Origin: Chloroflexota bacterium
Lineage (GTDB): Bacteria; Chloroflexota; Anaerolineae; Anaerolineales; Villigracilaceae
DNA length: 64,000 nt
Reading direction: 5' to 3'
NCBI GenBank assembly: GCA_016223135.1
Contig: JACRPQ010000012.1
Coordinates: 1-64,000 of the forward strand
A program made the translations under genes and the position numbers. A model generated the notes under the pieces. It had not been told where the DNA came from and searched no databases. It worked only from the letters and a program-made list of their open reading frames with translations. Positions 35,934 through 62,455 of the stretch are shown in pieces. The first letter of the stretch is position 1; each line of letters opens with the position of its first letter.

Positions 35934-36018
35934 GGTGTCGAAAGGGCAAACCCGTCGCAAGGCGGGGACGCAAAGTCATGGGTCCCATAGAGGAGTGGGA
36001 TCGCCAGACCGCCGAAAT
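35934..36018 (+). ncRNA. Cyclic-di-GMP-I riboswitch (GEMM-I)
   Basis: The aptamer has the class-I signature: AGGGCAAACC at the start, a P2 stem CCCGTC/GGCGGG closed by a GCAA tetraloop, the conserved joining segment GGGACGCAAAGTC, and a P3 stem TCCCAT/GTGGGA, as in known GEMM-I RNAs. It lies in the 5' leader of the secreted subtilisin gene and is followed by a terminator, so binding of c-di-GMP probably decides whether the protease mRNA is completed. The direction (on or off) cannot be read from sequence alone. Confidence 0.92.
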
Positions 36019-42761: not shown

Positions 42762-43205
42762 TTACGCGGCTGGCGATACGCTCAACGGACCAGTCATATA
42801 TTTTTTGCGCTGCCCATGTCCCAGCCAAGCCATTGCCTTGACGACCAGCACTGCCGGGTTGATGGGTTTTACCAGGCATTCATCCGCGCCTGCCTGATTG
42901 GCTTCCATCACCTCGCTGACGGTGTTTGCCGAGGTGAGCAGGATGATCGGTCCGCGGCTGGCGGCGCGCAGTTCCTGCAGCATCGCATTGCGCGCTGCTT
43001 TGGAAAGCTTCATATCCACCAGCATCAGCGAGGGACCGACCAGCCGCGCCGTTTGCAGGGCATTGGCAGCAGTGGTTTCAGACAGCACAATGCAATTCCT
43101 CTGCTGAAAGAGCGCTTCCAGCGTGGAGAGGTCCTCCAGGTGATCGGATGCGATTAACACCGTATGGAGGGGGATCGTGTCAATATCCGTTTTCCAGGTA
43201 GCCAT
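42762..43205 (-). CDS. Stand-alone receiver-domain protein
   Basis: The 147-residue protein is one response-regulator receiver domain: phospho-acceptor Asp in LMLVDMKLS, Thr/Ser in ILLTSAN, and Lys in CLVKPI. The start HTVLIASDHLEDL has a weak version of the usual acidic pair. No output domain follows. Such proteins pass phosphate or bind a partner. No kinase gene is adjacent. AAAGG precedes the ATG. Confidence 0.82.
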   Translation of the reverse strand: MATWKTDIDTIPLHTVLIASDHLEDLSTLEALFQQRNCIVLSETTAANALQTARLVGPSLMLVDMKLSKAARNAMLQELRAASRGPIILLTSANTVSEVMEANQAGADECLVKPINPAVLVVKAMAWLGHGQRKKYMTGPLSVSPAA

Positions 43206-43231: not shown

Positions 43232-43261
43232 TTGACGGAAAACAAACCTGCATGTTACACT
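43232..43261 (+). promoter_or_regulatory. Promoter of the leader-ORF and acetyltransferase transcript
   Basis: TTGACG at 43232-43237 and TTACAC at 43255-43260 (17-base spacing), or TACACT one base later, form a good sigma-70-like promoter. The predicted start, near 43268, leaves a short leader before the small ORF at 43303. Confidence 0.65.
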
Positions 43262-43302
43262 GGCTACGCTTGTAAATTTTACAGAAAGGAGACGCACGAG
43301 AC

Positions 43303-43401
43303 ATGGCAATGAACATCGTCATCAGCATCACGAAGTCGTTCCGCATTGAAAAAGGCGGCATTGGTTTCGTTCCTTGTCGTAGTGCGCCTGCTCGCTGGTA
43401 G
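43303..43401 (+). CDS. Short leader ORF (32 codons) upstream of acetyltransferase genes
   Basis: The ORF starts MAMNIVISIT and ends CRSAPARW, with a strong AAAGGAGA 12 bases upstream. It is followed after 22 bases by a terminator and by a second one, then by three GNAT genes. GTGCGC at 43382-43387, inside its last codons, can pair with GCGCAC at 43433-43438, inside the terminator region. That is the layout of a translated attenuation leader, though it could be an independent small protein. Confidence 0.5.
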   Translation: MAMNIVISITKSFRIEKGGIGFVPCRSAPARW

Positions 43402-43423
43402 TTTACACGCAGACATGTAAATG

Positions 43424-43504
43424 ACAGCCGCAGCGCACCCGCCTGTGGCTGTTTTTTTTATCCACTGTCAGCCATGGGCGCAAGTCTGTGGCTGTTTTAT
43501 TTAT
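43424..43504 (+). terminator. Two tandem terminators in the acetyltransferase leader
   Basis: ACAGCCGCAG/CTGTGGCTGT with T8 is at 43424-43459. CAGCCA/TGGCTG with TTTTATTTATT is at 43469-43504. Both right arms carry the word CTGTGGCTGTTTT. They lie between the leader ORF and the first acetyltransferase gene. Confidence 0.75.
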
Positions 43505-43564
43505 TCCTCATCCCAATCCTTCTCCCGTTGGGAGCGGGGCAAGGGATGAGGGGAGGAGATAACC

Positions 43565-44143
43565 ATGTTCGATATTCAAACCCAATTGTTCGAAGGACGC
43601 GACATCCGTTTCGGTCCCATTGACTATGAAAAAGACCCGCAAATCGAATCCAAATGGACGCATGATTCCGACTTCATGCGCCTGTACGGTATTGACCCGG
43701 CGCGTCCCATGTCGCCGGCGATGGTGAAGAAGAAGTACGAAAAACTCGAAAAAGAAATCGAGGAATCGAAGAACATCTTCTACTTTACCATCCGCGCCCG
43801 CGAAGACGACCGCCTGATTGGCAAAGCCGTCGTCAGCCGCATCGAATGGTCGAACGGCAACGGCTGGATCGAACTCGGCATCGGCTCGGCGGACGACCGC
43901 CGCAAGGGATACGGCACACAAGCCCTGCAGCTTCTGCTCCGCTTTGCCTTTGTGGAGTTGAATCTCTACCGCGTGACGGCGCGCGTCCAGGAATACAACG
44001 AGGCGGCGATTGCTCTGCTCAAGAAGTTCGGATTCACCGAGGAAGTGCGCAGACGACAGGCGCTGGAGCGCGACAGCCGCCGCTGGGACCTGCTCGTTTT
44101 CGGCTTGTTGAAGGATGAATGGGCGAAGCAGGCTCAGGCGTAG
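43565..44143 (+). CDS. GNAT-family acetyltransferase 1
   Basis: The 192-residue protein has the GNAT fold of the RimJ/RimL branch: GWIELGIGSADDRRKGYGTQALQLLLRFAF with the acetyl-CoA-binding RxxGxG/A loop, then ELNLYRVTARVQEYNEAAIALLKKFGFTEE. It transfers an acetyl group from acetyl-CoA to an amine; substrate unknown. Acidic and Lys-rich near residues 55-75. GGGAGGAG precedes the ATG. It is the first of three tandem relatives, but less similar to the others. Confidence 0.88.
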   Translation: MFDIQTQLFEGRDIRFGPIDYEKDPQIESKWTHDSDFMRLYGIDPARPMSPAMVKKKYEKLEKEIEESKNIFYFTIRAREDDRLIGKAVVSRIEWSNGNGWIELGIGSADDRRKGYGTQALQLLLRFAFVELNLYRVTARVQEYNEAAIALLKKFGFTEEVRRRQALERDSRRWDLLVFGLLKDEWAKQAQA

Positions 44144-44177
44144 GCTGAAGCGGATTTATATCCGAAAGGAGAATGCA

Positions 44178-44747
44178 ATGAGAGATTTATTTCGTGGAGA
44201 CTTGGTTCGCCTGACGGCTGAAGATCCAGAGACGCGCGCGAAAATCGAAGTCCACTGGCAAAGAGACTCGGAGTATCGCAGGTTTTTGGATGCCGAAGCG
44301 GTGATGGTGGTATCCGAAAAGTGGCTGAAGGATTGGTTCGAGAAACGGGACGAGGAAGGATTTGGTCCACACCGTTACGTTTTCTCTGTCCGCACCCTGG
44401 CTGAGGATAAATTAATCGGCTTCTTTGCTCTGTGGGTGGATCTGGTACACAGCGAAGCCTGGGTGGGCATCGGCATCGGCGAGCGCGAGTTTTGGGGTAA
44501 GGGCTGCGGCACGGATGCAATGCGGTTGTGCCTGAGGTATGCCTTTACCGAGTTGAATGTGCAGCGCGTATCGCTCGGTTTGATGGACTATAACCCGCGC
44601 GCACTGCGTTCGTATGAAAAGGCTGGCTTTCGGCTGGAAGGACGCACCCGCGGCGACGTGCAGCGCGCAGGCAGGCATCACGACTCCCTGTGGATGGGCA
44701 TCCTGCGCGCGGAATGGCTGGGTCTTGATGCGGCGGCGGTCGAGTAA
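44178..44747 (+). CDS. GNAT-family acetyltransferase 2
   Basis: The 189-residue protein shares GIGIGEREFWGKGCGTDAMRL, LRYAFTELNVQRVSL and YNPRALRSYEKAGFRLEGR with the next gene, so both are clear paralogues in the RimJ/RimL-like branch. AAAGGAG precedes ATG 44178; the open frame goes further upstream into the previous gene but lacks family sequence. It lies 34 bases after the first GNAT gene. Confidence 0.88.
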   Translation: MRDLFRGDLVRLTAEDPETRAKIEVHWQRDSEYRRFLDAEAVMVVSEKWLKDWFEKRDEEGFGPHRYVFSVRTLAEDKLIGFFALWVDLVHSEAWVGIGIGEREFWGKGCGTDAMRLCLRYAFTELNVQRVSLGLMDYNPRALRSYEKAGFRLEGRTRGDVQRAGRHHDSLWMGILRAEWLGLDAAAVE

Positions 44748-44807
44748 TGGCGCAAGATGCCATGTATCGAGACCCGCCGCCTACTCGACCGGCGGAGGAT
44801 AAAAACC

Positions 44808-45356
44808 ATGAGAGACATTTACAAAGGTAACCTTGTGCGCTTGAGCGCCATCAACGCCGAAGAAGCGGGTAAGGCATTCGCCCGCTGGCACCGCGACTCG
44901 GAATTCAAACGTCTGATTGACAGCGGTGTCCTGCAAATGCCATCCGCCAAGTTTGCACAAACCTGGCTGGAGAAAGAACTGGAAGAAGCGTCGGTCAATC
45001 AGCACTGGTTCAGCATCCGCAAATTGGACGACGACCGCTTGCTTGGCGACATTGACCTGTACGTGTACAACTGGTCTGCCCGCGACGCCTTTGTGGGGCT
45101 GGGCATCGGCGAGCGCGAGTTTTGGGGCAAGGGCTATGGAACTGACGTAATGCGCGTCATCTTGCGCTACGCTTTCACCGAAGTTAATTTGCACCGCGTC
45201 ACCCTGACCGTGTTCGAGTACAACCCGCGCGCCATTCGTTCCTACGAAAAAGCGGGTTTTCGTCACGAAGGACGGATGCGCGGAGCGCTGAACAAGGAAG
45301 GCAGGCGCTGGGACGTCCTCGTGATGGGCATCCTGCGCGAAGAATGGATGGAATAA
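44808..45356 (+). CDS. GNAT-family acetyltransferase 3
   Basis: The 182-residue protein has the same motifs as its neighbour: GLGIGEREFWGKGYGTDVM, LRYAFTEVNLHRVTL and YNPRAIRSYEKAGFRHEGR. GGAGG lies nine bases before ATG 44808; a start at 44757 would add residues that overlap no conserved part. It likely arose by tandem duplication of the previous gene. The three may act on related substrates, such as ribosomal protein N-termini, peptides or antibiotics. Confidence 0.88.
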   Translation: MRDIYKGNLVRLSAINAEEAGKAFARWHRDSEFKRLIDSGVLQMPSAKFAQTWLEKELEEASVNQHWFSIRKLDDDRLLGDIDLYVYNWSARDAFVGLGIGEREFWGKGYGTDVMRVILRYAFTEVNLHRVTLTVFEYNPRAIRSYEKAGFRHEGRMRGALNKEGRRWDVLVMGILREEWME

Positions 45357-62102: not shown

Positions 62103-62455
62103 CAATGGGAGCAGGCTGCGGGGTCTCCTTTCCAAATTTCCCCTCTCCCTCTGGGAGAGGGACAGGGTGAGGGCGGGGGGCAAAAGCGTTTCCGCTTTTA
62201 CCTGGTAGGGCGAAATTAATTTATTTCACCCTACAGTCCTGCCGCCATAGCAGGCGCGAAATGAATTTCGCGGTGCGTTAGGCGGGCAGGCTTCGGAGAG
62301 ATGCCTTTAGTGTAGCAGAAAAACGATAAGGAGTGGAGTGATAGACGTCACAAGGTCTGTCACAAGGGTTGTAGGGATTTTCCTGACGTATCGGTAAGTG
62401 TCCCGAAGACTGCCGGGGAGCGGTCAAGATGTGCCTGAAAAACCTTTGGGACGGT
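62103..62455. other. Non-coding gap with diverged repeat remnants
   Basis: CCCTCTCCCTCTGGGAGAGGG near 62142 is a hairpin. GGTAGGGCGAAATTAATTTATTTCACCC near 62204 and GCGCGAAATGAATTTCGCGG near 62246 resemble the inner stems of the cloverleaf-like elements in arrangement, not in sequence. GTCCCGAAGACT (62400) pairs with CTTTGGGAC near 62446. No gene is seen. Confidence 0.4.

Follow-up and report, generated by a model that had tools for sequence, protein, structure and literature searches.

A translated leader that probably acts as a ribosome-position-controlled transcription attenuator precedes resistance-type genes in Chloroflexota

Introduction

The closest described counterparts of the leader analysed here lie ahead of vmlR, hflXr, cplR and topAI, and the accessible parts of the respective reports give the following picture. 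In Bacillus subtilis, the vmlR leader combines an upstream open reading frame (uORF) within an anti-antiterminator stem, an antiterminator and an intrinsic terminator, and stalled ribosomes lead to read-through (PMC9226507). Read-through of Listeria rli80-hflXr depends on antibiotic (PMC6310831), and stalling soon after initiation has been proposed for Clostridioides cplR (PMC10201436). At the toiL-topAI uORF of E. coli, stalls at several positions can induce, and several ribosome-targeting drugs are sensed (PMC12121999).

Here we describe a leader from a 64,000-nucleotide stretch of a Chloroflexota genome (the window). A sequence-only reading of this DNA had pointed to a short translated ORF and two terminators ahead of three GNAT acetyltransferase genes, and had suggested that ribosome position might control read-through. 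No description of such leaders in Chloroflexota was found in the open-access papers searched, and a term search of the accessible part of one attenuation survey returned no mention of Chloroflexi. Leader and terminator together apparently form a widespread RNA switch in Chloroflexota that had not been described before.

Results

Organisation of the window locus

The leader is preceded by a promoter-like sequence at 43232–43261 on the forward strand, consisting of TTGACG, an 18-nt spacer and TACACT with the TG of an extended -10 element. It had been taken for a good promoter; the match itself stands, but taken alone it is at chance level (2 found against 1.3 expected). A similar block, TTGACG...TGTTACACT, is found again 5′ of the leader in same-genus genomes, and we infer from the sequence that transcription of the window leader starts near position 43268. 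A response-regulator receiver gene (42762–43205) lies divergent from the leader.

All further leader features are on the forward strand. The Shine-Dalgarno sequence AAAGGAG, 11 nt 5′ of an ATG, overlaps an element that we term A (GACGCAC; together 43285–43297), and is followed by the predicted ORF of 32 codons (43303–43401, MAMNIVISITKSFRIEKGGIGFVPCRSAPARW). Element B, AGTGCGCC, lies at the end of this ORF (43378–43391, CGTAGTGCGCCTGC) and is complementary both to part of A, beside the leader Shine-Dalgarno sequence, and to element C (GCAGCGCAC, 43430–43438), which makes up the upper 5′ arm and loop of the first terminator, T1. The leader stop codon (43399–43401) is positioned such that a terminating ribosome could cover B. 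T1 with its U-run spans 43424–43459; its hairpin (43424–43452) has a 10-bp stem, formed by 43424–43433 with 43443–43452, and a 9-nt loop, and is followed by eight T residues. A second terminator, T2, spans 43469–43498 (hairpin 43469–43494), and its 5′ arm (43469–43479) is also complementary to the 3′ arm of T1. Both terminators contain the word CTGTGGCTGTTTT, as had been remarked, and they share it because the 5′ arm of T2 is complementary to the 3′ arm of T1. The complementarity of GTGCGC (43382–43387) to GCGCAC (43433–43438) likewise holds, as part of a longer, bulged pairing of 9 bp. A terminator pattern scan with a loop limit of 8 listed T2 and missed T1 with its 9-nt loop, and terminator-like sites over the whole scan were not in excess (4 against 3.4 in shuffles). 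The window leader folds more stably than 200 of 200 shuffled sequences (z -3.3 and -4.6).

Behind the leader stand, as described, three tandem forward-strand GNAT genes of the Acetyltransf_3 type (43565–44143, 44178–44747 and 44808–45356). The closest solved relatives of the first gene product include aminoglycoside 6′-N-acetyltransferases (E 1.7e-11), and it passed none of the curated NCBIfam cut-offs against which it was run. A palindromic dispersed repeat (CCTCATCCC...GGGATGAGG, 43506–43551) separates T2 from this gene, and similar copies recur in the window genome and in related genomes. Elsewhere in the window, a c-di-GMP-I-GGC riboswitch (35936–36017) and a molybdenum-cofactor riboswitch (62109–62310) reach the Rfam gathering score.

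A large family of leaders

The sequence-only reading had tied the leader to the three GNAT genes. This proved too narrow, as the leader is a member of a large family. A DNA search of 101 related genomes with the leader gave long matches within the genus and shorter ones elsewhere, some of the latter being further leaders ahead of other genes, and the window genome itself holds a second copy, on another contig, ahead of an ABC exporter. Covariance model R1, which is largely a sequence profile as its stem is one column off on the 5′ side, detected the leader in 141 of the 152 family genomes, in one to five copies each (E up to 0.05), and in 201 of 301 genomes drawn from the order (E up to 0.01). 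With the corrected model, R2, it was found in 156 of 298 genomes drawn from the class, and 66 of 400 drawn from the phylum gave a match (both at E up to 0.01). Of these 66, 40 belong to the class of the window and 26 to other classes. Fourteen loci from 11 of those 26 genomes were read: five look real (L344, L349, L352, L353 and L354, with L352 and L353 near copies of each other), two are doubtful (L350, L355) and seven look like chance terminators. Within the class, outside the order, all six loci read have an ORF that runs through B.

A pattern scan of named genomes gave at least 118 loci, and among the 80 matches listed nearly all were records with Chloroflexi or Anaerolineae-type names. 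Two matching assemblies are named Herpetosiphon (L232) and Chthonomonas (L251); their leaders are near-identical to those of Anaerolineales, and by this likeness the genomes are probably misnamed. For the window leader and 12 other loci, Rfam gave no match at the gathering score, the hits being at chance level, and 6S or another known RNA was set aside on this ground.

The locus set used below comprises 153 loci, that is, 154 R1 hits less one duplicate (L058). Among 22 loci set aside earlier, R2 adds one leader (L036, 45.8 bits) and two weak matches (L040 and L041, 17 bits), all three of them outside the 153. Swap and ORF tests were run on the 144 leaders left after nine near-identical ones were dropped (window included), and L097, in which T1 was misassigned, was left out of A2.

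Resistance-type genes follow the leader

At 145 of the 153 loci the leader is followed by resistance-type genes, as judged from BLAST clusters with annotated representatives, together with annotation of most singletons, rather than from each gene. ABC exporters with membrane and ATPase domains account for 50 loci, DrrA-like ABC ATPases for 17, ABC-F proteins for 10 (the one representative tested passes NF000355 with 446 bits at a cut-off of 380) and MFS transporters for 4. Operons with Acetyltransf_3-type GNATs follow at 41 loci, an unnamed small protein coming first in six of these and a methyltransferase in one, and longer or tandem GNATs follow at a further 23. The chosen gene lies several hundred bases 3′ of the leader at some loci, and about 0.7–0.8 kb away for three of the four MFS genes. 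The remaining eight loci consist of three contig ends (L085, L162, L163), one unknown (L114) and four small-protein loci without a confirmed GNAT, namely L131 (contig end), L149 (no Pfam match behind), and L138 and L169 (HAD hydrolase nearby). Outside the order, the downstream protein was an ABC protein or a GNAT in 10 of 10 cases, these being 10 of 20 loci, picked as leader-like.

Small proteins of about 140–200 amino acids stand directly behind the leader at ten loci (L094, at 1685–2263, L131, L134, L138, L146, L149, L159, L166, L169 and L177), followed by a Pfam-confirmed GNAT gene at six of them. Pfam recognises neither the protein of L094 nor that of L149, and NCBIfam gives no match for that of L094 either. 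The unnamed small protein ahead of GNAT genes is a candidate for an uncharacterised resistance factor.

The reach of the leader ORF is conserved, its peptide is not

In 131 of the 144 leaders an ATG is preceded by a Shine-Dalgarno sequence, 13 having none, and the frame of this ATG is open as far as B in 129 of the 131, while the two alternative frames are open in 59 and 43. The stop codon falls 10–24 nt beyond the core of B in 127 of these 129. The ORFs are mostly about 20–35 codons long, with P[SC]RSAP or something similar as the usual C-terminus. Under a strict rule, 18 of the 144 loci lack an SD-preceded ORF through B.

The shared C-terminus raises the alternative of nascent-peptide arrest, whereby P[SC]RSAP would stall the ribosome in the manner of RAPP or of the SecM RAGP arrest motif. 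An SD-preceded ORF in the RSAP frame is present at 114 of the 144 loci, and among the 126 non-redundant leaders with such an ORF through B, 113 use that frame alone and one has two candidate frames. At the other 12, however, the ORF runs through B in a different frame and yields SECAC or something close to it in 10 cases and GVRL in 2; the arrest-peptide idea was dropped once this was seen. Codon-position differences between related leaders point the same way. For the three positions they number 136/143/162 over 37 pairs and 51/71/65 over 36 pairs, so that the N-terminal part has no clear third-position excess; these are greedy pairs whose alignments are unreliable when distant, and indel counts were not used. 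The genes behind the leader are moreover not protein-localisation genes, and a ribosome stalled on RSAP would be expected to cover B and so to turn the leader off. In favour of arrest stands the resemblance of RSAP to RAPP as the accessible part of one report gives it (PMC10951233); we regard arrest by the peptide as unlikely.

The expectation of a conserved peptide thus fails, since leaders differ in the frame that covers B and differences are spread about equally over codon positions. As both the peptide and the frame of B vary, looking for a conserved peptide was not the right test. With B read in several frames and the peptide showing no coding constraint, the likely signal is the position of the ribosome and not a motif in the peptide. 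What is conserved is likely to be where the ribosome goes, not the peptide that it makes.

Just 5′ of the B core, the string CCTT(C/G)TCG (43372–43379 in the window) is conserved in nucleotides across frames, without an assigned partner.

Complementarity of B to A and C

T1 was called at 153 of 153 loci, a count to be read with the fact that the search model covers the T1 region and that L097, at the least, seems to be a wrong call. Covariation in its stem is strong, with eight of nine pairs changed on both sides. For B and C, own pairs average -17.1 kcal/mol against -15.4 for swapped ones over the 144 leaders, and none of 2000 swaps is as good, also within gene classes; swap tests of this kind leave shared ancestry in. 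Taken leader by leader, the own C outdoes the median swap in 97 of 144 and falls short of it in 39, and it surpasses a shuffled C in every one of the 144. An uninterrupted B:C run of at least six is present in 130 of 144; when C is shuffled, the share is 25%.

In an alignment of 69 leaders, 82% of B:C cells are paired, close to the 80% of shuffles and above the 23–65% of slid versions. Double-change cells number 8 against 2.3 in shuffles; this measure is modest, since doubly changed pairs are just as numerous in three of the six slid versions. Compensations can be read by eye, for instance in L113 (GGAGTTTGCC with GGGCAAACTCC) and in L087. Where B departs from the canonical form (32 loci), the locus's own B pairs better with C in 18, and the canonical one would do so in 13. 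The base beside B covaries as well, a G before the core going with CTCC in the terminator (p 1e-10, relatedness still in). An A:B run of at least six is found in 120 of 140 relatives; in the window the uninterrupted run is five (by eye), shorter than in most of them. By sequence, then, B:C provides a mutually exclusive antiterminator overlapping the ORF and the terminator, and both the ORF and the pairing on which the sequence-only reading turned are conserved.

These features bear on the plainest alternative, that T1 and T2 are two ordinary terminators which end a small RNA or insulate an operon, with ORF and pairing having no regulatory role. Both terminators are strong and both form at equilibrium; in the full-length window RNA they do so even when a ribosome sits on the start codon. 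A conserved ORF, a conserved stop position and conserved B:C complementarity would nevertheless be surprising for such a pair, as would the placement of the leader ahead of one kind of gene, and we consider this reading very unlikely. Since equilibrium favours T1 and T2, a switch based on B:C must be kinetic.

Predicted effect of ribosome position

Ribosome states were modelled by folding with a masked footprint, in snapshots that end before the 3′ arm of T1 is made. For the window, the predicted number of B:C pairs is 9.4 with no ribosome, 9.5 with one at the start codon, 8.0 at codon 9 and 8.5 at codon 16, and it drops to 0.1 once the ribosome is on the last codon. The corresponding averages for 129 leaders are 5.7 with none, 9.2 at the start codon, 6.3 at codon 9 and 0.36 at the stop codon, the collapse near the stop following largely from the footprint imposed over B. 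Such cover of B is just what the conserved placement of the stop codon would achieve. Without a ribosome the mean of the exporter group goes down to 3.3. A:B pairing is weak in the window (0.13 pairs), so the untranslated window leader may be on.

We propose that a ribosome reaching the leader stop codon would cover B, whereupon T1 would form and transcription would end. If the ribosome instead stalled on the start codon or within the first part of the ORF, B would be free to pair with C before the 3′ arm of T1 is made; T1 would then fail, and RNA polymerase would run on into the resistance-type genes. At loci with strong A:B pairing, A would hold B, so that an untranslated leader would also be off.

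Proposed coupling of tandem terminators

T2 was found at 81 of the 153 loci, and its presence varies with the class of gene: 29 of 34 Acetyltransf_3 loci, 15 of 22 with tandem GNATs, 14 of 17 with DrrA, 8 of 10 small-protein loci, 4 of 10 with ABC-F, 2 of 3 with MFS and 7 of 10 others have it, and only 2 of 47 ABC-exporter loci. In 75 leaders, the complementarity of the T1 3′ arm to the T2 5′ arm beats 2000 of 2000 swaps, also within classes, the own pair being better than the median swap in 55 and worse in 19. At loci with T2, the T1 3′ arm freed by B:C pairing might pair with the T2 5′ arm and so disarm T2 too. This hairpin is within 3 kcal/mol of T2 or stronger at 43 of the 75 loci. As the complete T2 is on average the stronger of the two (-19.7 against -16.8, and likewise in the window), the hand-off from T1 to T2 must be kinetic, and it is the least secure part of the proposal.

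Nature of the signal

A leader ORF with alternative hairpins is also the anatomy of the trp and his attenuators, which respond to amino-acid starvation. Across 129 leaders, however, there is no strong shared amino-acid excess, and clustered codons were not seen by eye. Relative to the protein background, Trp (0.07) and His (0.42) are depleted, whereas Thr is enriched 1.7-fold and Cys 3.4-fold, the latter making up just 1.4% of residues. The genes behind the leader are not biosynthetic either, and we give starvation control very little credence. Least probable of all is a leader bound by a ligand or protein (a riboswitch or an antitermination protein) with an incidental ORF, in whose favour the partnerless CCTTSTCG counts, given the strong conservation of the ORF as an ORF and the Rfam result for the window leader and 12 other loci.

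For the ribosome-position-controlled attenuator, ribosome stalling had been named as a natural signal should the GNATs modify an antibiotic or a ribosomal protein. The ABC-F, exporter and MFS genes found behind the same leader strengthen the case for an antibiotic signal, and the genes downstream may point to a translation-inhibiting antibiotic rather than general translation stress; this is the least certain of our conclusions.

Discussion

The conserved ORF and the B:C complementarity support the suggestion that ribosome position may control read-through, and we conclude that the leader is probably a ribosome-position-controlled transcription attenuator, to which we assign a probability of roughly 0.77. 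A more tentative proposal, to which we give somewhat less than even odds, is that a peptide-agnostic sensor of stalled ribosomes sits on many unrelated resistance-type genes as a cis-encoded resistance regulon, with terminators coupled so that one stalled ribosome would clear both. If so, a large environmental phylum with few laboratory models would hold an inducible-resistance regulon that can be read from its DNA alone, and the leader would serve as a marker, any gene behind it being a candidate uncharacterised resistance gene. It would also be a natural case in which the position of the ribosome, rather than the sequence of the peptide, seems to carry the signal, and it offers a testable rule for how tandem terminators may be coupled.

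In outline, the leader appears to work like those of vmlR, hflXr and cplR. As no sequence relation is known, membership of the vmlR/hflXr type is not claimed, and the following comparison is limited to the accessible parts of the reports. With vmlR, likened by anatomy and not by sequence comparison, the leader shares the outline of uORF, antiterminator and terminator and, at 10 of its loci, a downstream ABC-F gene; vmlR has a single terminator and a hairpin over the vmlR Shine-Dalgarno sequence, whereas the Chloroflexota leader often has two terminators and precedes many kinds of gene (PMC9226507). Listeria rli80-hflXr has an anti-anti-terminator besides the shared anti-terminator, terminator and short ORF, but its ORF of 14 codons carries an RLR macrolide motif, and no such conserved motif was seen in the Chloroflexota leaders (PMC6310831). 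The Clostridioides cplR leader also places a uORF and a terminator ahead of an ABC-F gene; its uORF has three codons, in contrast to the longer ORFs of Chloroflexota, and the Shine-Dalgarno sequence of the gene is sequestered too (PMC10201436). Finally, toiL-topAI resembles the proposed behaviour of the Chloroflexota leader in that stalls at several uORF positions can induce, and differs in controlling translation and Rho termination where the Chloroflexota leader would act through an intrinsic terminator (PMC12121999).
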